A stretch of DNA of 64,000 bases, from the NCBI GenBank assembly GCA_963693315.1, contig OY856186.1:302566586-302630585 (forward strand), in the 5' to 3' direction. Within the stretch, counting starts at the first letter, position 1; each line of letters begins with the position of its first letter. The notes beneath the pieces are model-generated. The model made no database searches. It was given only the letters and a program-made list of their open reading frames with translations, and was not told where the DNA came from. This stretch comes from Diogma glabrata (taxonomy: Eukaryota > Arthropoda > Insecta > Diptera > Cylindrotomidae). The position numbers and the translations under genes were made by a program. Positions 8,096 through 63,115 of the stretch are shown here, one piece after another.

Positions 8096-8564
8096 TTATG
8101 ATATTTTGCACATTATTAATGCGATATAAATCGTGATCAAGATTTTGAACAGTAAAATGAGAATAAACGAATATTTACATTTGTAAGTGTAAATAGATCG
8201 GTTGGCTTTGTTTTTACTGTTAAACTTTGACACGTAGCTTAAGTCTGTTTGTCTTTGGTGGCGCGCAGTTTTAGACGGCTTCTGATCCATTGTGATGAAT
8301 TCTTCATCTTTGCTGGTTAAATAACTCGAGATTCCAAGTCGCTCTTCAAGCTCACACCAAATTATCTGGTTGTGTTAACCATTATTATTGAAATTCAATT
8401 TACTTCTTCACACCGTTGTCATAACTCTTTTCGTAAGACACCAGTTATAATAGTGTCTTTGTAATCAACGTTCTCGGTCTTTGATACACTATTTTTTAAT
8501 ATTTTGACACTAAGTTCGACACTAATATCACTAGTTTTCAAATTTTGAACTTTTTTGTCTCCCA

Positions 8565-9025
8565 GAAAAAAACCCAACTTTTCTTATGGATTTGGACCTC
8601 CTGAACTAGAATATCATATTCATTTTTTTGGGTTAGCTCTTGTTTTTGAGATATTTACGAAAAACCAATTTTTCGGTGATCAAAAATGTTGTTTCGGTTT
8701 TTGGGTCTCATATTTTACAAAACAAACAATTTAAATGTATTAATGGAACATGTGCCTAGTAAATATACAAATAAACATTTTGAGCTATATTTTGTAGAAA
8801 TCCATTAAGGATTCTGGAAGTTACAGTCGAAAAAAGTTGAAAAATACGAAAAATTCACGTTTTTTTTAATTTTTCCATTTTCAACACCATAAATTTTGAA
8901 CAAATAAAGACACTGATTTGTTTAAAGATAAGCTAAGAGATACGAATATTGGCGCAGTTTGCACCAAGTTATTCAAGTTTTCCCAAATAATATCTAAACT
9001 CAAAATTTGGAAAAAAAATTTAACT
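8565..9025. repeat. Left inverted arm of the 8.6-14.0 kb structure
   Basis: About 450 bp that reappear inverted, at very roughly 85-90% identity by eye, at 13538-14015. Shared landmarks are AACCCAACTTTTCTTATGGA, CAAAAATGTTGTTTCGGTTT, GATTCTGGAAGTTACAGTCG and CAGTTTGCACCAAG. Confidence 0.8.
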
Positions 9026-9054: not shown

Positions 9055-10037
9055 TTTTTTTTTTTATTAATTAGTTAGACAAGTTTAGCACACTAAATAT
9101 GAAATATTCATTATTTAGACTCTTTGAATATCCGAAGATACCATGTCAACTAGAAAGGAAGAAGGTTGGGAAAATAGAAGGAATAACTATATTAATTGGG
9201 GGGGGTAAATTCATCGGGAAAGACGTAGGCGGGCATAGAGTTCCATAATTTGGCCACTCTATTAAAATAATCGTTTTGGAAGGACATAGTTCTACAACGA
9301 GGTATTTGGACAGCAAATGGATGGGATAACTCTGAAGTTCTTGTTCGTCGATTGAACTTCCCACAAGGGAAGGATATTTTAAATTTACTTAGAGGAGAAG
9401 TCACTAAAGTTGTATTTATAGTAGATTGACAATTCAGCCACATTTCTTCGGTGCTGGAGTGAATCAAGCTGATTAGTTAATTCGGTATTATCAATCAACC
9501 ATTTTGCTTTCCTCTGTACAGAGTCTAGACATTTTATTGTTTATTGACAAGCACCTCCCCAAACATGACAGCAGTACTCCATACATGGACGAATAAAGGA
9601 CTTATAGATCAGCAAAATTTGATCGGGATTGAAAAATTTCTTACATCGGCTCAAGAATTCTAATTTTTGCATTGCAGATTTTGCGAGATTGAACACATGT
9701 TTATTCCATTTCAGGTTATTTTCTATATCCACTCCAAGAAGTCTAATTGATTCAAGCTCATGCAATCCCTCTTAATAGGAAAGTTTTTATGTCGTTCTAT
9801 TCGTGAAAGACGACAAAGTTTAGTTTTGATTGGGTTAAATGCAACAAGATTACGACCACCTCATTCCATTATACGGGCCAAGTCCTCGTTGATAGAATCA
9901 ATTAACAGCTCTCTGTCAGTGGTGACTGCAGTTTGAGATTGAAATTTAGAAGATGCATGTGATACATGCAATGTGCTGTCATCAGCAAAACTATGGATTG
10001 GGTGCACTGTAGAATTAAGTAAATCATTTAAGTATCA
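9055..10037 (-). pseudogene. 5'-truncated LINE copy, RT C-terminal half (FADDST lineage)
   Basis: The minus strand encodes the end of the reverse transcriptase of the same lineage as the intact gene at 32996-35863. It begins at the palm motif (NDLLNSTVHPIHSFADDSTL near 9965-10036) and continues through SIRLLGVDIENNLKWN and IRPCMEYCCHVWGG to RCRTMSFQNDYFNRVAKLWN and VFPDEF. Frameshifts break it near 9540 and 9770. The 3' UTR retains a block matching the intact copy (GGTATCTTCGGATATTC) and ends in an A-run, seen as T at 9055-9065. This is a typical 5'-truncated LINE insertion. No target duplication was recognised. Confidence 0.85.
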
Positions 10038-10083: not shown

Positions 10084-10287
10084 GATCTAGCTCCTCCCAC
10101 CTCGGACTTATTTTAGGAGTTGGAAAATATCAGTTAGTTGATTATGAAATGTCTTTTTTGACAAAAGTTGTATTTTATTTGTATATGATTTTTCTCGAAA
10201 TTGAGATTTTTTTTGTGAAGTTTTTTGACATGATCTAGCTCCTTTCACCTCGGACTTATTTTAGGAGTTGGAAAATATCAGTTAGTT
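10084..10287. repeat. Pair of 56-bp direct repeats beside the satellite
   Basis: A 56-bp block (GATCTAGCTCCT ... ATATCAGTTAGTT) occurs at 10084-10139 and again at 10232-10287, 148 bp apart. The second copy runs directly into the first satellite unit. Confidence 0.75.
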
Positions 10288-10425
10288 ACAATTAATTCAA
10301 TGAATTATTTGTGATATTACATCACTCCGATGGAAATAATCCCATCATGAATAATAAGACTGAATCTAACAAAATATGGTGTGCAATTTATGAAATTTTT
10401 TTGCTATCCACAAAATTGTCGATCG

Positions 10426-10504
10426 ATCTAGTTTCGAACCGATAAGAACTTTTTATTACACTTTAAAAAAGTATATCATTCTCATCAGGGCTAGCCGACT
10501 AGAT
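10426..10504 (-). ncRNA. Hammerhead ribozyme, satellite unit 1
   Basis: Read on the minus strand from 10504 to 10426. Stem III strand AUCUAGU is followed by C17 (cleavage after GUC), a tiny stem-I hairpin GGCUAGCC, and the core CUGAUGA. Stem II pairs GAAUGAUA with UAUC-G-GUUC (8 bp, one bulged G) and is probably extended by ACUUUUU/AAAAAGU. The core GAA and the return strand ACUAGAU close the fold. All invariant bases (C3 U4 G5 A6 G8 A9, G12 A13 A14, A15.1-U16.1, C17) are present. Stem III is the open helix, so this is topologically type III. Confidence 0.85.
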
Positions 10505-10865
10505 ACACTACCAAAAAAATTTTTCGCTATATAAACCTAAAATAGGTCACTTCTCTAGCGAAGTATAAGAAACCAAAAAACGTGATATTAGATTCAGGTT
10601 TAGTCAATTTGTTTCTCTAATTGATCACTATTGTTGTTATACTCTAACCAAGTTAGAATTGGATAACAAACTTGTATCGGTAAGAAGAAGATGACCATCT
10701 TCACTTGTGTCTATCGACACATTACCTACAATTAATTCAATGAATTATTTGTGATATTACATCACTCCGATGGAAATAATCCCATCATGAATAATAAGAC
10801 TGAATCTAACAAAATATGGTGTGCAATTTATGAAATTTTTTTGCTATCCACAAAATTGTCGATCG

Positions 10866-10944
10866 ATCTAGTTTCGAACCGATAAGAACTTTTTATTACA
10901 CTTTAAAAAAGTATATCATTCTCATCAGGGCTAGCCGACTAGAT
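10866..10944 (-). ncRNA. Hammerhead ribozyme, satellite unit 2
   Basis: Same 79-nt fold as unit 1 with the core and all three stems unchanged. Predicted cleavage falls between plus-strand positions 10937 and 10936. The unit's 6-bp deletion lies outside the ribozyme. Confidence 0.85.
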
Positions 10945-11311
10945 ACACTACCAAAAAAATTTTTATAAACCTAAAATAGGTCACTTCTCTAGCGAAGTAT
11001 AAGAAACCAAAAAACTTTCATAAACATATGATATTAGATTCAGGTTTAGTCAATTTGTTTCTCTAATTGATCACTATTGTTGTTATACTCTAACCAAGTT
11101 AGAATTGGATAACAAACTTGTATCGGTAAGAAGAAGATGACCATCTTCACTTGTGTCTATCGACACATTATCTACAATTAATTCAATGAATTATTTGTGA
11201 TATTACATCACTCCGATGGAAATAATCCCATCATGAATAATAAGACTGAATCTAACAAAATATGGTATGCAATTTATGAAATTTTTTTGCTATCCACAAA
11301 ATTGTCGATCG

Positions 11312-11390
11312 ATCTAGTTTCGAACCGATAAGAACTTTTTATTACACTTTAAAAAAGTATATCATTCTCATCAGGGCTAGCCGACTAGAT
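11312..11390 (-). ncRNA. Hammerhead ribozyme, satellite unit 3
   Basis: Identical to unit 2 over the whole fold. It starts 139 bp into the unit, the same offset as in every other unit. Confidence 0.85.
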
Positions 11391-11763
11391 ACACTACCAA
11401 AAAAATTTTTCGCTATATAAACCTAAAATAGGTCACTTCTCTAGCGAAGTATAAGAAACCAAAAAACTTTCATAAACATATGATATTAGATTCAGGTTTA
11501 GTCAATTTGTTTCTCTAATTGATCACTATTGTTGTTATACTCTAACCAAGTTAGAATTGGATAACAAACTTGTATCGGTAAGAAGAAGATGACCATCTTC
11601 ACTTGTGTCTATCGACACATTATCTACAATTAATTCAATGAATTATTTGTGATATTACATCACTCCGATGGAAATAATCCCATCATGAATAATAAGCCTG
11701 AATCTAACAAAATATGGTGTGCAATTTATGAAATTTTTTTGCTATCCACAAAATTGTCGATCG

Positions 11764-11842
11764 ATCTAGTTTCGAACCGATAAGAACTTTTTATTACACT
11801 TTAAAAAAGTATATCATTCTCATCAGGGCTAGCCGACTAGAT
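11764..11842 (-). ncRNA. Hammerhead ribozyme, satellite unit 4
   Basis: Same fold and offset. The unit's A-to-C change (AATAAGCCTG) lies outside the motif. Confidence 0.85.
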
Positions 11843-12215
11843 ACACTACCAAAAAAATTTTTCGCTATATAAACCTAAAATAGGTCACTTCTCTAGCGAA
11901 GTATAAGAAACCAAAAAGCTTTCATAAACATATGATATTAGATTCAGGTTTAGTCAATTTGTTTCTCTAATTGATCACTATTGTTGTTATACTCTAACCA
12001 AGTTAGAATTGGATAACAAACTTGTATCGGTAAGAAGAAGATGACCATCTTCACTTGTGTCTATCGACACATTATCTACAATTAATTCAATGAATTATTT
12101 GTGATATTACATCACTCCGATGGAAATAATCCCATCATGAATAATAAGACTGAATCTAACAAAATATGGTGTGCAATTTATGAAATTTTTTTGCTATCCA
12201 CAAAATTGTCGATCG

Positions 12216-12294
12216 ATCTAGTTTCGAACCGATAAGAACTTTTTATTACACTTTAAAAAAGTATATCATTCTCATCAGGGCTAGCCGACTAGAT
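12216..12294 (-). ncRNA. Hammerhead ribozyme, satellite unit 5
   Basis: Same fold and offset, no change in the core. Confidence 0.85.
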
Positions 12295-12667
12295 ACACTA
12301 CCAAAAAAATTTTTCGCTATATAAACCTAAAATAGGTCACTTCTCTAGCGAAGTATAAGAAACCAAAAAACTTTCATAAACATATGATATTAGATTCAGG
12401 TTTAGTCAATTTGTTTCTCTAATTGATCACTATTGTTGTTATACTCTAACCAAGTTAGAATTGGATAACAAACTTGTATCGGTAAGAAGAAGATGACCAT
12501 CTTCACTTGTGTCTATCGACACATTATCTACAATTAATTCAATGAATTATTTGTGATATTACATCACTCCGATGGAAATAATCCCATCATGAATAATAAG
12601 ACTGAATCTAACAAAATATGGTGTGCAATTTATGAAATTTTTTTGCTATCCACAAAATTGTCGATCG

Positions 12668-12746
12668 ATCTAGTTTCGAACCGATAAGAACTTTTTATTA
12701 CACTTTAAAAAAGTATATCATTCTCATCAGGGCTAGCCGACTAGAT
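12668..12746 (-). ncRNA. Hammerhead ribozyme, satellite unit 6 (partial unit)
   Basis: The last unit is cut at about 12828, yet the ribozyme is complete. A minus-strand transcript of the array would therefore be cut six times, giving five monomers of 440-452 nt. Confidence 0.85.
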
Positions 12747-12828
12747 ACACTACCAAAAAAATTTTTCGCTATATAAACCTAAAATAGGTCACTTCTCTAG
12801 CGAAGTATAAGAAACCAAAAAACTTTCG

Positions 12829-13537: not shown

Positions 13538-14015
13538 GTAAAAAATTATTTTTTCCAAATTTTGAGTTTTGACTTTTTTTGGGAAAACTTGACTAGCTTG
13601 GTGCAAACTGCTTAAAAGAAAGAGAATTGAAGCTATTATAGGCTCCAAGAAATTAAAAAAAATTAGTGTCTTCATTTGTTTAAAATTTATGGTGTTGAAA
13701 ATGGAAAAATTTTAAAAAACGTGAATTTGTCGTATTTTTCAACTTTTTTCGACTGTAACTTCCAGAATCCTTAATGGATTTTTACAAAATATAGCTCAAA
13801 ATGCTTGTTAGCATATTTACTATGCACTTGTTTCATTAATATTCTTAATTTGTTTGTTTTGTAAAATATGAGACCCAAAAACCGAAACAACATTTTTGAT
13901 CACCAAAAAAATTGGTTTTTCGTGAATATCTCAAAAACAAGAGCTAACCCAAAAAAATGAATATGATATTCGTGTTCGGCGGTCCAAATCCATAAGAAAA
14001 GTTGGGTTTTATTTC
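13538..14015. repeat. Right inverted arm of the 8.6-14.0 kb structure
   Basis: Inverse of 8565-9025 (see that entry). The two arms face each other across 4.5 kb holding the LINE fragment and the hammerhead satellite. Confidence 0.8.
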
Positions 14016-14082
14016 GCGAGATTTTTTTTGTAATCTAGTTTATTTAATATGCATTCTGCTAATTTGAGTGTAACACAAAATA

Positions 14083-14852
14083 TTTTATTTTATTTATTTT
14101 ATTTATTTTATTTATTTTATTAATTTTATTTATTTTATTTATTTTATTTATTTTATTTATTTTATTTATTTCATTTATTTTATTTATTTTATTTATTTTA
14201 TTTATTTTATTTATTTTATTTATTTTATTTATTTTATTTATTTTATTTATTTTATTTATTTTATTTATTTTATTTATTTTATTTATTTTATTTATTTTAT
14301 TTATTTTATTTATTTTATTTATTTTATTTATTTTATTTATTTTATTTATTTTATTTATTTTATTTATTTTATTTATTTTATTTATTTTATTTATTTTATT
14401 TATTTTATTTATTTTATTTATTTTATTTATTTTATTTATTTTATTTATTTTATTTATTTTATTTATTTTATTTATTTTATTTATTTTATTTATTTTATTT
14501 ATTTTATTTATTTTATTTATTTTATTTATTTTATTTATTTTATTTATTTTATTTATTTTATTTATTTTATTTATTTTATTTATTTTATTTATTTTATTTA
14601 TTTTATTTATTTTATTTATTTTATTTATTTTATTTATTTTATTTATTTTATTTATTTTATTTATTTTATTTATTTTATTTATTTTATTTATTTTATTTAT
14701 TTTATTTATTTTATTTATTTTATTTATTTTATTTATTTTATTTATTTTATTTATTTTATTTATTTTATTTATTTTATTTATTTTATTTATTTTATTTATT
14801 TTATTTATTTTATTTATTTTATTTATTTTATTTATTTTATTTTATTTATTTA
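14083..14852. repeat. (ATTTATTTT)n simple repeat, about 85 copies
   Basis: A 9-bp unit repeated for about 770 bp with only a few changes near the left edge (ATTAATTTT, ATTTCATTT). It begins about 70 bp beyond the right arm and ends at a short GC patch (CCAGCCGGACTGGACTGG). Assembled length may differ from true length. Confidence 0.95.
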
Positions 14853-16894
14853 TAAGCCAGCCGGACTGGACTGGACTGCTTTCTTCTTGTCATTAATTTC
14901 GACCTTTATTGGGAAAATATGTTTTCTAATGCTTATTTTGTTGTTAAATTATTTATTTAAATCGTACCTTCAACTTGAAAGCTTAATTGGATTTGTTTTT
15001 TACAATTTACAAATTTTCAAGCAGTCATGATTACGATATCGCGTTTTCATCTCATATTGCAATACTATAGTTTAAAGACTAGATTAAGTTGCAAGCTTTT
15101 TCAATAATTATGATAGTAAAAAATGTCATTAATTTTCTTACATTTTCTTATTATAAGCAAAGCTGTTGAGCTTTTGTTGTCTAAGCAGCAATGAGACAAT
15201 GTTATTCTCAGAGGTTGATCACCGCTACCGTTAATGATTCGCTTAATATATTTTCAAAATTAGAGTACCGCAAAAGAGAAGCGCAAAGTGTTGACTTTTT
15301 ACGTTCCGTTTGCAAACAATAAAATATAACCATTCGAATTTTTTATGTATAATTTAAATCAAATTTTTTTCCCATTTTACATATTTACTTGTAATACGAC
15401 AGACATAATTACGAGTATGTGTATATACACATACACATCTTCAAATTCAATGGGCTTGTGCTGGAAGAAAATATGTTAAAACAAAAAGAAAAATCTATTT
15501 ATTTTTCTTTTTTTGTTCTTTTTCATTTTTATGTTTTTTTTTATATATTTTTATAAATGTTTAGTATTCTTATATCGTAATCATCTTTATCTTTATACAT
15601 AAGAAAAGCAAAAAAAAAAATATAATAACATCACAAAACAACATAAAACAAAATAAATTGTTGGAGATGAGATATAAAAAAATCGTTTCGGATGAGTTCG
15701 ATTTTATATTTTAATTTTGTTTGTTTGTGATATAGGGTATCGCGTTATCGCGTTAAATCCATATTTTTTAGAGGTTAATCTAATTACCAATGGAAAATCT
15801 CAAAGACGTATCTTAATTCTCAGTAAATATAAAAAAATAATTTAAAATCGTAAATAAAATTTCCTTCGAAGTTATAATTTCGAAGGTATTATCGGAAGTA
15901 CAATGAATAAATATTATTTTAAAGTTTTTATAATATTTAAACATCACATACTCCTAAGTAATTCCAACAACAGTTCAAACAGGTAAAAATACTGATTCAC
16001 CAAAATATAATTTTCTTTTTATAATTTTTTCTAATCTTAATGTTTTCCCTCAATTTCGTATTGTTCCTTTATTCTGCTATATATAAACTTTTAATTATAA
16101 TCTTCCCCGGTTCTGAATTACTCATACTGTGTAATATTTGTTACGTTAAGAGGAGGGTTGATTGAATTATATTTATTAATTCTAGAAAATTATATTAAGA
16201 ATAAAAATTGTCTCAGAATCACCCTATTAATCGAAACAGGAAAAAAAACTAAAAATAAAATTACAGAACCATTTCATCTTTTCTTTTTAAGAAAAATAAA
16301 ATTACAGAAAACGTAAAAGAAAATGAAATAATTTTTTTTTAAATTACTGTAAGTGCTGTTGTTGTTTGGAATTTGTAGGTTATTCTTATTCATTTAAATT
16401 TGTCACATCGCGTAATGGTGTTTATGATAATTTTGGTCTTTTTCGTGCAATAGAGCTTGGTATGCAAACGACTGAAAGGATTAAACATAAAAAGGCACTA
16501 TTTGGAATTGTTTCAAACAATCCAAACAATTTCCAGCGTGCCTGGCACCAGGCAGTATTTGGAATTGTTTCTTACTTTAATCTTTGACTATCCCAATATC
16601 AATTGTAGGTTGACGGACTAAGAAAAACCAAGCTGTTTATTAAAATATGATAAGAATAACTAAAGGTCAGTTCTATTGTTTGGAAAGATATAAGCTCACT
16701 CCTATGGTGCAAAGTATGAAAGTGATTTGTTTTTAACAAAAGGGGCATTTGGTTTGACTGAAGTAACTGGAAAAAATTGTCTTAAGAGACAAACTCCAAA
16801 TCCTTGTTACACGACAGCAATAAATGTTTAACTGTCCATTCTTCAAATAGGTTTTTTTAAAGGTTTAGGTTTATTCGTTAAAAAGTATAATCTT
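14853..16894. other. AT-rich stretch, no gene recognised
   Basis: A 73-codon frame at 16366-16587 has no recognisable homology and holds a small internal duplication (TTTGGAATTGTTTC twice). Nothing else stands out. Confidence 0.4.
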
Positions 16895-32720: not shown

Positions 32721-32995
32721 TTAAATTGAATTTTGTTTTTATTTTGAATGCAATTATGGTTTTTCTTTCCTCTCTACTCTAGTAAAATTTTATTATTTAT
32801 CTATTTCATTATTTCATAATTTTAATTGTCGATTTTAACAGTGAACCTAGACTTAGATTCAGGTTGTCCAGCTGTTGAAGTAGTCAATTTCAATTTCAAT
32901 TTGAGTTTGTTCAATTTCAATTTGAGTTTGTTTGTTTTCGCATTACTGTGGTTTTCGTATGTATGTTTTTAATTGATATTTCTCTATGAATTAAA

Positions 32996-35863
32996 ATGGC
33001 AAAATTATCTATCAGCTATGCGAACATAAGAGGATTGAATATAAACCTTAATTCAGTCCATCTTTTTCTTGAAACTATGAAACCTGATATTTTGTTTTTA
33101 ACGGAAACGATTATCAGTGCGCGTGCTGTGACCTTAGATAAAAACAGATACCTTTGTCCCAATTATGAGCTTGAATCCTCTTTCTACATTAAGCATGGAG
33201 TTTGTGCTTATATTAGGGATACTATACCATATGTGAGATTAAATAAATTTGAATTAAATGCAAAATTTCACAATATGGTGTCACTAAAAATTAGTTGCCC
33301 AAGTCAAACGCTGTTTGTCTTTGGACTTTACCGTTCACCTAATTCACCTGAGAACTCTAATTTATTTCATGACTTATCTGAGAAGATAGATAGGTTGGTT
33401 GAGTATCCTAATGCAAAGTTTATAGTTCTTGGAGATTTTAATGTCCACAATAAAGAATGGCTTACACACAGCTCTAAAACTGACGAGGTTGGTAGACAGG
33501 CTGAGTTGTTTGCTCTTTATCACAATTTTACTCAAATAATAGACCTGCCAACCAGAGTTCCTGACATTCCTGGTCAAAGTAGTAATTTACTTGATTTATT
33601 TTTGACAAACGATCCATATCTGGTTCAATTTAAAATATCAGAACCAATGGGTGGTTCAGATCATAATTTGATCTCCACACAACTAAATATACAAATTCCA
33701 AAACAATTTAAAGCGAATCCTCGCAATGTTTGGGATTACAAAGCTGCGGATTGGCAAGGACTAAAAAGTTTTTTTAGATGTTTTCCTTGGAAACGCTATT
33801 GCCTTACCGGCCAAGACCCAGACATAGCTGCATCAAATTTTTCTGAAACTGTAATTGATGGTATGCACAGATTTATTCCTAATAAATTGATCATTTCGAA
33901 AACTGATCTATGGTTTTCTAGTAAATGCAAAAAAGCTATAAAAGTTAAAAAAAAGGCTTTTCGAAAGTTTAATCAAAACAAAACCGATGAAAACCTTAGA
34001 CAGTACCGTAAAGAGAGAAATTTATGTCGTAAGTTAATAGATGAAGAGAAACATCTATTTAATAGGAAAAAAGCATCTAAATTCGCAGAACATCCGACTG
34101 GTTCACGCAATTTCTATAAAGCCGCAAAGGCTGTCCAAAGCAACTTTTGTAAATCTTCCCTACCGCCTCTTGTTAATAGAGATGTCCCTATCATTGATCC
34201 AAAAGAGAAAGCTAATTTGCTTGGGCATTATTTCTCTTTAAATTCTACTTTAAAAGAACCTAATTTCCAACCTAAACCTATTTCTAAAGTTTCTTATAAA
34301 ATGAGGCGGATAATTTTTCGGAAAAACATTGTTCGAAAAATGCTTTTAAAAATCAATACTAACAAGGCAACAGGCCCTGATTTTATTTCTCCGATTATAC
34401 TTAAAACATTTGCTAGGGAGCTAGCACCAATCCTCACAAAAATCTTCTATTTGTCATATAAGAAAGGAATTTTTCCTGAAATTTGGAAAATGGCTAGTGT
34501 ACAGCCAGTTTCAAAAAAGGGCAGTAAGACTGATCCTACGAATTACAGACCCATTTCAATTTTATCGGTAGCTGCTGAAATTTTTGAGAAATATGTCAAT
34601 TTTAATTTAATGAGCTTCTTAGAATCTTCCAAATTAATTAATGAGAGACAATATGGATTTCGAAAAGGAAGAGCGACGGGAGATTTGCTGTCTTTTGTCA
34701 CTCATATCTGGAACAAGTCGCTTGAAAACTTTGGAGAAACATTCGGTGTTGCCCTTGATATTTCCAAGGCATTTGACAAAGTTTGGCATAACAACCTTAT
34801 ATGCAAATTGAGATCCTATGGTTTAGACGAGCAGCTTATATCTTGGACACAGAGCTTTATATCTGATCGAAAATTTCGGGTCAATGTTGACGGTGTATCA
34901 TCGAATACTTTTTCAACTAATGCAGGAGTTCCTCAGGGTTCCGCTTTGTCACCAACTCTTTTTCTTATCTATATTAATGATTTGTTGGACTCAACGGTTC
35001 ATCCTATACATAGTTTTGCTGATGATAGCACGCTTCATGCGTCTCATGAAGCACCTAAACTATATACACCCTTAGCGCTTAGTGAGTGTAGGTCAAAATT
35101 GATAGATTCCCTTAACACTGATCTTAAAACAATTATGGATTGGGGTATTGCTAACAGTGTTGAATTCAATACAAGCAAAACACAGGTTTGTCATTTTTCT
35201 AGGATAACGACACCCAATCCTTTTCCATTAACGTTTGGCCCCAAAAATCTTTTAGAGAATGAGTCTGTCAGACTTCTAGGAGTTGAGATTGAAAATAATA
35301 TGAAGTGGAATTCTCATATTTTTAATCTGGCTAAGAATGCTGTTCAAAAGTTAGGATTTTTGGGGCGATGTCGTAAGTTTTTCGATAGCGAACAACTTCT
35401 TTTAGTTTATAAATCTTTTATACGTCCCTGCATGGAATACTGTTCTCACATATGGGGTGGAGCTTACTTGAGTAGTCTCAACTGCCTTGATTCTGTACAG
35501 CAGCGTAGAGCTATTAAACTCATTGGTAACCCAAGTCTTACTAACGGTCTTGATTCCTTGCAGCACAGAAGAAATGTTGCTGATTTGACTATATTTTATA
35601 AATATATTATGGATGAACGAGCTTCTGAAGAGATCAAATCGATTTTACCTAAATCATCAAACCTTTCGCGTCACACCAGAGCAAACGTAGCAGCGCATCC
35701 CTTTACCGTTCAAATAATTAGGTGTAGAACTGTAGCCTTCCAACGTGACTTTTTCAACAGAGTCTCTCATCTTTGGAATGCCTTACCTTCCTGGGTTTTC
35801 CCTGATGAATTTAATCCTCAAGGCTTTAAAGTTAACGTTCATAAATTTCTCAGAGAATCTTAA
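32996..35863 (+). CDS. LINE ORF2: endonuclease plus reverse transcriptase (FADDST lineage)
   Basis: 955 codons, uninterrupted. Residues about 5-220 are an apurinic-type endonuclease: SYANIRGLN (Asn), LFLTETI (Glu), VLGDFNVHN (Asp, Asn), GGSDHNLI (Asp-His). The reverse transcriptase spans about 450-760: NYRPISILSV, QYGFRKGRATGD, ALDISKAFDKVWH (motif A Asp), NAGVPQGSALSPTLFLIYIN (motif B) and HSFADDSTLH (catalytic Asp pair). The thumb and C-terminus follow (SVRLLGVEIENNMKWN, IRPCMEYCSHIWGGA, VFPDEFNP). No RNase H or gag-like ORF1 is present, and only about 275 bp separate it from the 55-bp minisatellite, so the element is probably 5'-truncated before ORF2. It should act in cis on its own RNA at the target site. 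The clade is Jockey/CR1-like by motif, not proven. Confidence 0.95.
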   Translation: MAKLSISYANIRGLNINLNSVHLFLETMKPDILFLTETIISARAVTLDKNRYLCPNYELESSFYIKHGVCAYIRDTIPYVRLNKFELNAKFHNMVSLKISCPSQTLFVFGLYRSPNSPENSNLFHDLSEKIDRLVEYPNAKFIVLGDFNVHNKEWLTHSSKTDEVGRQAELFALYHNFTQIIDLPTRVPDIPGQSSNLLDLFLTNDPYLVQFKISEPMGGSDHNLISTQLNIQIPKQFKANPRNVWDYKAADWQGLKSFFRCFPWKRYCLTGQDPDIAASNFSETVIDGMHRFIPNKLIISKTDLWFSSKCKKAIKVKKKAFRKFNQNKTDENLRQYRKERNLCRKLIDEEKHLFNRKKASKFAEHPTGSRNFYKAAKAVQSNFCKSSLPPLVNRDVPIIDPKEKANLLGHYFSLNSTLKEPNFQPKPISKVSYKMRRIIFRKNIVRKMLLKINTNKATGPDFISPIILKTFARELAPILTKIFYLSYKKGIFPEIWKMASVQPVSKKGSKTDPTNYRPISILSVAAEIFEKYVNFNLMSFLESSKLINERQYGFRKGRATGDLLSFVTHIWNKSLENFGETFGVALDISKAFDKVWHNNLICKLRSYGLDEQLISWTQSFISDRKFRVNVDGVSSNTFSTNAGVPQGSALSPTLFLIYINDLLDSTVHPIHSFADDSTLHASHEAPKLYTPLALSECRSKLIDSLNTDLKTIMDWGIANSVEFNTSKTQVCHFSRITTPNPFPLTFGPKNLLENESVRLLGVEIENNMKWNSHIFNLAKNAVQKLGFLGRCRKFFDSEQLLLVYKSFIRPCMEYCSHIWGGAYLSSLNCLDSVQQRRAIKLIGNPSLTNGLDSLQHRRNVADLTIFYKYIMDERASEEIKSILPKSSNLSRHTRANVAAHPFTVQIIRCRTVAFQRDFFNRVSHLWNALPSWVFPDEFNPQGFKVNVHKFLRES

Positions 35864-57790: not shown

Positions 57791-58397
57791 TAATAATTTA
57801 TTATCCTTATCCTTCCTCTTATCTGATTCTTATATTTTATCCCTTTAGCTATAAGTTTTTGTCCATTTAATTTTTTCTTCTTTTTTTGCAACTAAATAGC
57901 AACTAATAACCCTCACAGCAGCATTCTATTTTCTTTTTTCCGACATTTTAAATTGCGTAGTGTTGTAAAAAACTTTCGTATTCTCCCTCTGAGCATACAC
58001 CGGGTTGACTCGAGTCGGTTGCCGAGTTCCAGCTCATATATTTTCGGGACCAAAAAAAAAAATAAGAAAAATAAGCCAAATGAAGAAGCCAAACTAATAA
58101 TTGCAGCGCGAGATCTGCAATGATATAATTAACTGGGAAATAACTTCACTGTTTCAACTCCTCTATTTACTTCAACCCGACATCACGGTGATGACAAATT
58201 AAATTATAAAAAATTATATTCTAGGAAAAAAAATTATATTTCGATTTACTTTACAAACAAAAAAAAGAAACCCGACATGATGTGTCCAGTAGGGAAGTAG
58301 TTATAAAACATATAATAGTATATACTAGTAGTTGGTGAGTACCTGTGGTCTAACTCTTGATTTTGTATTTGAACTGACCTCTCCGATGACTAGCCAG
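57791..58397. other. No feature recognised
   Basis: AT-rich DNA before the 113-bp minisatellite. Confidence 0.35.
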
Positions 58398-59997
58398 GCT
58401 CCAGAAGTGGTTTTACAATATTGAAAATTTTAGAGTTGAGATTTGTTGGCATTTACAGCGTCGACTGACGTGTAATTGATGATATTAACAACCCGGCTGC
58501 ATTGGTATGGCACCAGAATTGATTTATACAATATTAAAAATCATAGAGTTGACATATGTTGACATTTACAGCGTCGACTGGGGTTTAATTGATGATATTA
58601 ACAATCCAAGTGCATTGGTATGGCATCAGAATTGATTTATGCAATATTAAAACTTTTAGAGTTGAAAAATGTTGACATTTACAGCGTCGACTGGGGTGTA
58701 ATTGATGATATTAACAATCCAAGTGCGTTGGTATGGCACCAGAATTGATTTATACAAAATTAAAAATTTTAAAGTTGAAATATGTTGACATTTACAGTAT
58801 CGGCTGATATGTATCTGATGATATTAACAACCCGGGTGCATTGATATGGCACCAGAATTGATTTATAGAATATTAAAAATTTTAAAGTTGAAATATGCTG
58901 ACATTTACAGTATCGGCTGATGTGTAACTGATGATATTAACCAGGGTTGTGCCGTAAACAAAATAGATTACTTTACATGTATAGATTACGCATAGGTTAC
59001 GTGTAAATTACGCGAGATATTTTCGTGTAATCTATAATGTAAACTATAATGTAATCTATTTAATTGATATGTGAATTCTAAAATTTTTTAGCAATAAATT
59101 AACTTTTTTCAAGATCGCAAGATCTTGTTTTTGACAATATTATTGATCATGTCTATTAAGAAAAATTTTCAGTAGGGATAATACAATATTTCCACATATT
59201 TCTTCATAAATCAAAATTAATAGATTACGCCAAATTTACATAGATGACATAGATTTCATTACATAGATTACATATGTAATGTAATCTATTTTAGATTACG
59301 CGTAAAGGAACAACCCTGATATTAACAACCCGGATGCATTGGTATGGCACCAGAATTTATTTATACAATATTAAAAATTTTAAAGTGGAAATATGTTGAC
59401 ATTTACAGCGTCGACTGATGTGTAATTGATGATATTAACAACCCGGGTGCATTGGTATGGCACCAGAATTGATTTATGAAATATTAAAAATTTTAGAGTT
59501 GAAATATGTTGACATTTACAGCGTCGACTGATGTGTAACTGATGATATTAACTACCCGGGTGCATTGGTATGGCACCAGAATTGATTTATGCAATATTAA
59601 AAATTTTAGAGTTGAAATATGTTGACATTTACAGCGTCGACTGGGATGTAATTGATGATATTAACAATCCAAGTGCATTGGTATGGCACCAGAATTGATT
59701 TATGCAATATTAAAAATCTTAGAGTTGAAAAATGTTGACATTTACAGCGTCGACTGTGGTGTAATTGATGATATTAACAACCCGGGTGCATTGGTATGGC
59801 ACCAGAATTCATTTACGCAATATTAAAAATTTTAGAATTGAAATATGTTGACATTTACAGCGTCGACTGATGTGTAACTGATGATATTAACAACCCGGGT
59901 GCATTGGTATGGCACCAGAATTGATTTATGCAATATTAAAAATTTTTAAGCTGAAATATGCTGACATTTACAGCGTCGACTGTTGTGTAATTGATGG
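58398..59997. repeat. 113-bp minisatellite, 11 units, interrupted once
   Basis: Landmark CACCAGAATTGATTTAT recurs at 58511, 58624, 58737, 58850, 59348, 59461, 59574, 59687, 59800 and 59913, with a diverged first unit at about 58398. Spacing is exactly 113 bp except across the hAT insertion. Units share CATTTACAGCGTCGACTG and AACCCGGGTGCATTGGTATG and differ by a few bases. Confidence 0.95.
58942..59318. mobile_element. hAT-type MITE, 377 bp, with perfect 8-bp target duplication
   Basis: Ends CAGGGTTGTG and CAACCCTG. ATATTAAC directly precedes (58934-58941) and follows (59319-59326). Subtracting 377+8 from the local unit spacing (498) returns exactly 113, so the boundaries are certain. The interior has many TAGATTAC / GTAATCTA boxes and no ORF, so it must have used a transposase made elsewhere. 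Confidence 0.95.
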
Positions 59998-62449: not shown

Positions 62450-63115
62450 GGAAGGAGTAAGGATATAGCAATCTAGTTAGGCTTATGTTTTTTAATGGCG
62501 ATGAACATTTTCTTTAAATGTATGAACGGTAAATTCGTCGAAAAAAACGGAAGGAAGCAATGAATTCCATAACTTCGCCACTTTTTTAAAATAATCGTTT
62601 TGAAAAGAAGCAGCCACGTTTCGTCGGTAATTTAGTGAATGATGCTGAGCAGTTAGCTCAGTATTATCTATTAATCGTATTGCGTTCCCCTGAACATAGT
62701 CTAGTCTAGACATTTATTATTGACTGGCAGGCATCTCAACAAACATGACAACAGAATTCCATACAAAACATGGGCGAATAAATAACTTATTATAAATCAG
62801 CAAAATTTGTTCGTGATAGATAAACTTCTTATATCGCACAGGAAAATCCAATTTTTGGATTGCAGATTTAGCAATGCTTGTTTGATCGTTCCATTCCATA
62901 TTATTTTCGATAACAACTATAGGAAGTTTAGCTGAGTCGCCCTTGTGTAATTCCTCATTATTTATCTTAACATAAAAATCATTAGTTAATGCCATCTAAA
63001 TGCATGAGACAGTACGATCTATAGTAATCCCATGAGATTAGCTACGAGATTTCTATGCCAAACTTTATCAAATGCTTGAGAAATATCAAATGAAATACCG
63101 AATGACTGAAACTGA
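62450..63115 (-). pseudogene. LINE reverse-transcriptase remnant with internal deletion (FADDST lineage)
   Basis: From 63115 downward the minus strand reads FGISFDISQAFDKVWHRNLV (motif A), then jumps directly to ALTNDFYVKINNEELHKG and VIENNMEWN, IAKSAIQKLDF, YNKLFIRPC, then LDYVQGNAIRLIDNTEL, AASFQNDYFKKVAKLWNSL and VFFDEF. Motifs B and C are therefore deleted, and several frameshifts follow. It is clearly related to the intact copy at 33 kb and the fragment at 9-10 kb. Confidence 0.8.

Follow-up and report, generated by a model that had tools for sequence, protein, structure and literature searches.

Insertion ends of a candidate type III hammerhead retrozyme in the dipteran Diogma glabrata point to mobilisation by a Penelope-like element

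Animal retrozymes that lack long terminal repeats (LTRs) are described from coral, mussel and axolotl as small, low-GC, non-coding repeats, tandem and dispersed, with one type I hammerhead ribozyme per unit, a highly paired predicted circle and target duplications of more than 4 bp; they coexist with Penelope-like elements (PLEs), named merely as a strong candidate for moving them (PMC7229834). Their repeats are described as holding no motif from which the mobilising machinery could be deduced (PMC7761336). Here we describe a tandem array in a 64,000-nucleotide stretch of the genome of Diogma glabrata (Diptera, Cylindrotomidae; assembly GCA_963693315.1, contig OY856186.1, positions 302,566,586 to 302,630,585 of the forward strand; hereafter the window). 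The array and its dispersed relatives share the traits listed above, except that the hammerhead is of type III, the unit measures 452–461 nt rather than the ~170–400 nt of the animal retrozyme RNAs, and the palindrome lies in stem I rather than stem III. Our analysis suggests that the repeat is a non-autonomous, animal-type retrozyme mobilised by the enzyme of a PLE, a reading to which we give a probability of about 0.75. The ends of the dispersed copies point to it. Many of these copies consist of two facing arms with two fixed starts, an arrangement not described in the parts of PMC7229834 covered here, whose main text does not contain the word "inverted".

A parallel to these ends lies in the PLEs themselves. 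Purified PLE protein cleaves and extends both DNA strands, starting at two adjacent internal RNA sites that bound a tail (PMC11167929), and PLE pseudo-LTRs face each other, carry the tail at one of the two inverted ends and are flanked by duplications of 8–10 bp (PMC3846280). The D. glabrata insertions resemble these accounts in all of these respects, in the similar distance of the hammerhead upstream of the start sites and in the occurrence of tandem or facing copies. Unlike PLEs, the retrozyme has no open reading frame (ORF), carries a type III rather than a minimal type I hammerhead, and shows no sequence match to 12 PLE 3′ ends. Plant LTR retrozymes share the type III hammerhead and the circular RNA scheme, but have LTRs, a tRNA primer site and 4-bp duplications in place of facing tandem arms and longer target repeats (PMC7229834, PMC7761336). 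The pDo500 satellite of Dolichopoda cave crickets is likewise an insect repeat of ~500 bp with a hammerhead in each unit and a proposed double form; that form keeps stem III within one molecule, and no retro-insertion anatomy is reported in the parts of that paper covered here (PMC2837043). Type III hammerheads are also described from circles resembling hepatitis delta virus and from dipteran and termite genomes, where long helices I and II and a loop pseudoknot replace the stem I of 2–3 bp found here (PMC7936874). The earlier note on this DNA, made from the sequence alone, had remarked that type III would be unusual in an animal tandem repeat, which stands as a rule (PMC7229834) but not as an absolute one, given the dipteran and termite examples (PMC7936874) and a mention of insects (PMC7761336).

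The window array comprises 5.65 units by unit mapping (period 452, 5.7 copies and 98% matches in Tandem Repeats Finder). Its units start at 10287, 10727, 11173, 11625, 12077 and 12529, measure 440, 446, 452, 452, 452 and ~299 nt, and differ from one another by 0.63% on average. The unit is AT-rich, low in GC and non-coding, with a longest stop-free run of 64 codons in the three units tested and no ORF combining reverse transcriptase and GIY-YIG domains. All six units carry one identical 79-nt motif on the minus strand, in the order AUCUAGU-C / GGCUAGCC / CUGAUGA / stem II / GAA / ACUAGAU. Stem III is AUCUAGU/ACUAGAU (7 bp), C17 lies in a GUC triplet, and stem I is formed by GGCUAGCC. The motif combines the CUGANGA...GAA core, A15.1–U16.1, H17 and three stems with stem III open, the features of a type III hammerhead. 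The earlier note had described a complete type III core with a GUC triplet in every unit, with a predicted cut between 10937 and 10936 in unit 2; we find the core in 6/6 units and predict the cut at the same position. Its 8-bp stem II does have eight pairs, but they are not continuous, being split into 4 bp, a bulged G and 4 bp, followed by a long loop able to form a further hairpin. The features are as follows.

10287..12827, minus strand as ribozyme RNA strand: one-armed array, delimited by repeat finding and by mapping of its ends to the start sites S4 and S66 defined below
10426..10504, minus strand: hammerhead motif of unit 1, predicted cut 10497/10496
10866..10944, minus strand: hammerhead motif of unit 2, predicted cut 10937/10936, the C before the cut being 10937
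11312..11390, minus strand: hammerhead motif of unit 3, predicted cut 11383/11382
11764..11842, minus strand: hammerhead motif of unit 4, predicted cut 11835/11834
12216..12294, minus strand: hammerhead motif of unit 5, predicted cut 12287/12286
12668..12746, minus strand: hammerhead motif of unit 6, predicted cut 12739/12738
10929..10936, minus strand: stem I of unit 2, GGCUAGCC, a perfect 8-nt palindrome (from the sequence and computed energies)
11173..11238, minus strand: positions 1–66 of unit 3, with the stretch between the putative reverse-transcription starts S4 (~11176) and S66 (~11238), as deduced from where dispersed copies end

Since GGCUAGCC is fully palindromic, a single molecule allows at most 3 bp of stem I (2–3 bp pair), while all 8 bp can form between two molecules in a double hammerhead. 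With so short a monomeric stem I, the double hammerhead is predicted to be the likelier, and probably the active, form of the ribozyme. In other animal hammerheads it is loop III that is known to carry palindromes through which dimers can form (PMC3088659). Beside the array, a 56-bp direct repeat (10084–10139 and 10232–10287, 96% identical, 148 bp apart) has a second copy that ends exactly at the array's left end.

Relatives of the unit are spread through the 1.33-Gb genome. A 30-base motif probe allowed up to 3 mismatches gave 7,807 matches, and a pattern of stem I, core and GAAA gave 7,759 (one motif can count twice); neither control, the reversed probe included, gave any. We mapped 61 loci, namely the window and 60 stretches fetched from three lists (one of them for a subfamily called D), a selection that favoured two-armed loci. 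Forty-nine consist of plus units followed by minus units, 6 of plus units only, 6 of minus units only and none of minus followed by plus. The same order appears in an unselected sample, the 100 zero-mismatch probe places listed from the first 121 Mb of contig 1, which form 41 clusters: both strands occur in 13 of these, always plus-then-minus. We fetched the 13 and 7 of the other 28, and 4 of the 7 (L024–L027) proved to be two-armed as well.

We define a start end as the outer end of a left plus arm or of a right minus arm, the point at which cDNA synthesis must have started if the ribozyme strand served as template. Of 110 such ends, 83 fall into two sites 62 nt apart in the unit, 46 at S4 (unit positions 443–12) and 37 at S66 (unit positions 54–74); the two intervals, chosen after viewing the ends, span 43 of the 452 positions. 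Among the 49 two-armed loci, 24 pair S4 with S66, 24 combine one of the sites with an end elsewhere, one uses neither site, and in no locus do both ends share a site. Were the two sites chosen independently, the absence of same-site loci over 24 loci would have a chance of ~4e-8 (derived arithmetic). Of the S4/S66 loci, 23/24 have flanking direct repeats of 9 bp or longer, against 14 of 980 null windows, and the dispersed copies have these target duplications without any LTR. What the earlier note had treated as satellite DNA therefore belongs to a large set of dispersed retro-insertions with fixed ends and target repeats. The retrozyme-like scheme that it proposed for multimeric minus-strand RNA holds up better, in that the arms of the dispersed copies appear templated, in repeated units, by the minus ribozyme strand.

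PLEs of the same genome show a matching arrangement. A GIY-YIG domain search scored 150 places of 4,129 first-look candidates. Among them, neighbours within 10 kb form 16 opposite-strand pairs, all minus-then-plus (6 further pairs are plus-plus and 3 minus-minus), and this order matches that of the retrozyme arms in 16/16 cases. The one ORF that we examined (568 residues) contains RVT_1 and GIY-YIG domains, as in PLEs, and has relatives with such domains in other insects and on further contigs. In one facing PLE pair (L081/L072) the two ends lie 61 nt apart, and the pair is flanked by a repeated target of 7–12 bp; this tail of 61 nt compares with 62 nt in the retrozyme. Ribozyme core and first start are separated by 127 and 121 nt in two copies from the family of this pair, by 123 nt in a second PLE family and by 136 nt in the retrozyme. 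In the retrozyme, 24 of the 49 two-armed loci show the full PLE pattern of both strands extended, two fixed internal starts and a tail at one end. With fixed ends, extension of both strands, tail, arm order and duplications all as in PLEs, we take the retrozyme anatomy to be that of a PLE insertion. Two further observations concern the PLEs. An inverted repeat of ~480 bp (87%; 8558–9021 and 13543–14021), which flanks the array and a retroelement fragment, is the target of L081/L072, and the window therefore holds the unoccupied site of that insertion. Elsewhere, C598:2654-17122 (L074, L083) contains six tandem GIY-YIG matches at 2,868–2,869 bp spacing with long open frames, and is a head-to-tail PLE array.

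The interior of the copies bears on the form of the RNA template. In the 24 young two-armed loci, arms measure 20 to 4,370 nt and the inner junctions are scattered anywhere in the unit, with an overlap or gap of 0–10 bases in 22/24 and 23 and 73 extra bases in the other two. Junctions this tight in 22 of 24 loci argue against transcripts with source flanks as the usual template. Of 48 arm stops, 8 lie near the ribozyme cut and palindrome, at unit positions 203–225, and none at the cut itself (210/211); these 8 could come from cut templates or from snap-back joining. We then compared 61 complete units from 22 loci for uniformity. The two units of L009 differ by 0.00% from each other and by 1.11% from the nearest other locus, and the three 455-nt units of L028 by 0.15% and 1.11%, respectively. 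In L014, L017 and L029, units are uniform both inside an arm and from one arm to the other (means 0.00–0.15%), but these loci show recency only, since identical units occur at other loci, while L019 and L030 are too divergent for such a reading. Uniform multimers without source flanks would favour a circular monomer as template. A highly paired circle is predicted for the unit (circular fold −118.6 kcal/mol, z −6.3 vs 100 shuffles), although a few other stretches of the window likewise score very low in this analysis.

These features suggest the following scheme. A minus-strand read-through transcript of tandem copies would be cut by its type III hammerheads, probably in double form through the palindromic stem I, into ~452-nt monomers, which a host ligase may close into circles. 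A PLE protein, probably a dimer, would attach to a single circle through two fixed sites separated by 62 nt and cleave the two strands of an AT-rich target at points a few bases from each other, with each strand then priming reverse transcription from a different one of the two RNA sites. Each enzyme would then circle the RNA for anything from part of one round to nearly ten (longest arm 4,370 nt), and the two same-sense cDNAs would join at random, sharing little or no homology at the junction, leaving facing arrays and a short target duplication. While the ends, the arm order, the duplications, the uniformity within loci and the likeness to PLEs can be read from the genomic copies, self-cleavage, circularity and the agency of a PLE are what these copies imply. 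For the full version of this scheme, in which a type III dipteran retrozyme records in its insertions a PLE copying one circle, using each of two starts once, one per strand, with both reverse transcriptases running in the same direction and the same-sense cDNAs joined, we would still wager in favour, if with some reserve.

Conservation singles out the ribozyme within the unit. We compared one genomic reference unit from each of three subfamilies, A (that of the window), B and D, which are identical at 373/442 (A–B), 387/449 (A–D) and 361/446 (B–D) positions. The three agree at all 33 positions that make up the core, C17, stem I and stem III, against 282/373 outside and 24/46 in stem II and its loop, and nowhere in the unit are invariant runs longer than in the two ribozyme halves (29 and 17 nt). 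Single decayed copies with core changes occur; at the level of subfamilies, the related units with broken cores that the earlier note had named as one of its refutations were not seen. Over the 20 D loci, the A base is the majority at 26/26 motif positions outside a search pattern used for D and at 330/373 positions outside the motif; D was, however, first met by a different pattern, which contains part of stem III and GAA. The motif is also rare by chance. A descriptor of type III topology, requiring 7 bp or more in stem III, 4 or more in stem II and 3 or more in stem I, matches only the six array motifs in the window and gave 11 matches in 2.26e9 single-strand bases of first-order Markov sequence, from which ~6e-4 matches are expected per 64-kb window on both strands (derived arithmetic); only a single topology enters this null, and the initial scan may have extended over many windows. 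A second hammerhead-like repeat (TAGTCAGTGGACTGATGAG..., six of the places listed) lacked stem II on visual inspection and was discounted.

Several results weigh against a PLE-mobilised, self-cleaving retrozyme. The window copy itself has a single arm, with its left end (unit position 1) at S4 and its right end at unit position 299, and no recognisable target duplication. At least one end lies elsewhere in 25 of the 49 two-armed loci, for which later decay, truncation or another mode are candidates, and a direct repeat of 9 bp or more flanks just 6 of these 25. Uniformity within a locus can be told apart from recency in L009 and L028 alone. When the 12 PLE 3′ ends were set against units A and B, no tail resembled the S4–S66 stretch; the matches were all weak and AT-rich, and the best of them (E 0.002, 63.6% over 99 nt) lay outside it. 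The conservation of the ribozyme is partly built in, as B and D were found with patterns holding part of the core, stem I or stem III. Rfam includes models for type I and type III hammerheads. The covariance-model check that the earlier note had proposed gave no hammerhead match at three settings (the whole window at gathering scores; 2.7 kb at E ≤ 10, with nothing at all; a 111-base slice, with four weak matches of other kinds), and the very short stem I together with the long stem II is a likely reason. Predicted folds also favour other structures. Folded without constraint, the 79-nt motif gives a hairpin in which most of the core is hidden (−21.0 vs −11.2 kcal/mol for the monomeric hammerhead) and which is predicted to be more stable in A, B and D alike; for two strands, the free fold reaches −56.0 kcal/mol against −39.6 for the double hammerhead, which can share an 8-bp stem I and two 7-bp stems III and is itself well below twice the monomeric value. 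These energies exclude tertiary contacts and co-transcriptional folding. A switch between cutting and stored forms has been proposed for viroids, and a hairpin/hammerhead switch of that kind would fit here, though this is speculation.

The same hairpin underlies an alternative in which retro-insertion proceeds as described, but the motif acts as the hairpin, either binding protein or stabilising the RNA, while the hammerhead has no activity. The greater predicted stability of the hairpin speaks for this, as does its 5′ strand, which contains most of the core. We scored both pairings on a 42-row alignment of the window, 16 of 21 distinct A/B motifs and 25 of 27 D motifs; this alignment leans towards intact motifs, having dropped L028 (which repeats the window row), one L048 motif together with L016, L027 and L034 (changes in or beside the core) and two 82-nt L054 motifs of D. 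The hammerhead pairs 90.0% of cells, with 22 two-sided-change cells against 9.8 in shuffles, while the hairpin pairs 75.2%, or 80.7% slid by one column to allow for the extra G of D, with no two-sided cells. The 22 cells fall in two pairs of stem II and reflect mostly one subfamily event, and such changes affect just 2 pairs of stems II and III, a number that 482/500 shuffles also reach, which speaks for the hairpin. Against it, the partner strand opposite the core has changed between subfamilies (C to U, U to C) while the core has not; C3, U4, the CUA of stem I and A14–A15.1 are unpaired in the predicted A hairpin yet invariant in A/B/D; and a chance match to the full descriptor is rare. We consider an inactive hammerhead unlikely. 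Still less credible is ordinary satellite DNA with a chance hammerhead-like motif: the repeat is tandem, AT-rich and non-coding and has no Rfam match, but the rarity of the descriptor, the conservation among subfamilies and the dispersal with target repeats and fixed ends speak against it, and the insertion anatomy already contradicts it, leaving it next to no weight.

Two other mobilising routes would leave facing arms. Twin priming by a reverse transcriptase of a long interspersed nuclear element (LINE) on linear multimeric transcripts, with the hammerhead trimming the RNA or being incidental, yields facing arms with chance junctions and microhomology. The window does hold a 957-codon open frame (32990–35863) that is non-LTR retrotransposon-like by eye, with related DNA at ~9413–10029 and 62528–62956, and at L022:2582-2605 a one-armed copy with an S66 start and a stop at unit position 238 is followed by ~21 T and then by the repeated target TATAAAAGCT. 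LINE twin priming, however, has one fixed end, whereas here both outer ends are fixed and each copy has one of each (24 S4/S66 and no same-site loci). No poly-A run stands at the start-site ends listed, junctions overlap or gap by 10 nt or less in 22/24 young two-armed loci, units are uniform within one locus, and the arm order is shared with GIY-YIG elements, one examined pair of which shares spacing and duplication as well; a LINE origin is on these grounds improbable. A Foldback-type DNA transposon with terminal inverted repeats built of tandem units would explain two facing arrays, target repeats of ~9–15 bp and a unit number that varies from arm to arm. Its outer ends would form a terminal inverted repeat, but those seen here differ in sequence (unit positions 66 and 4), the inner junctions fall anywhere in the unit, and one-armed copies with an S4 or S66 end occur (e.g., L022, L028 and the window), so that this origin is very improbable indeed.

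If a PLE does mobilise the retrozyme in this way, its insertions would provide direct evidence, at the level of sequence, that PLEs move animal retrozymes, as has long been suspected, and would show that PLE protomers divide two RNA sites between them. The insertion ends would supply a motif that points to the machinery, namely two starts 62 nt apart, each used once, as in PLEs. Among openly accessible papers, in the portions covered (subscription papers and preprints being outside this scope), we found no description of facing arms or PLE-type ends in retrozymes. A single protein and a single 452-nt RNA would suffice to put the question of mobilisation to the test in vitro, and the copies would be a natural record of apparent rolling-circle reverse transcription by a telomerase-related enzyme. 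They would also add to an animal genome a type III retrozyme with its palindrome in stem I rather than stem III.

Beyond this element, a plasmid collection search and an exact 23-base scan of viral contigs gave no match. COX1 of this genome, translated with the invertebrate mitochondrial code, has its best score with Pseudolimnophila (94%) and matches Dicranomyia at up to 95%, both crane fly genera; many further Diptera and some scorpionflies follow at 91–94%. Complete COX1 matches occur in pairs in large contigs (C5:20072602 and 20090504; C1:340085418 and 340102658) at a spacing of about one mitochondrial length (17.5 kb, contig C1788), and reflect either tandem whole-mitogenome insertions or assembly artefacts. 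In the window, a 113-bp unit forms two nearby tandem arrays (58397–58941 and 59317–59996), and the 9-mer TTTATTTTA forms an array of 770 bp with 98% matches at 14084–14853.

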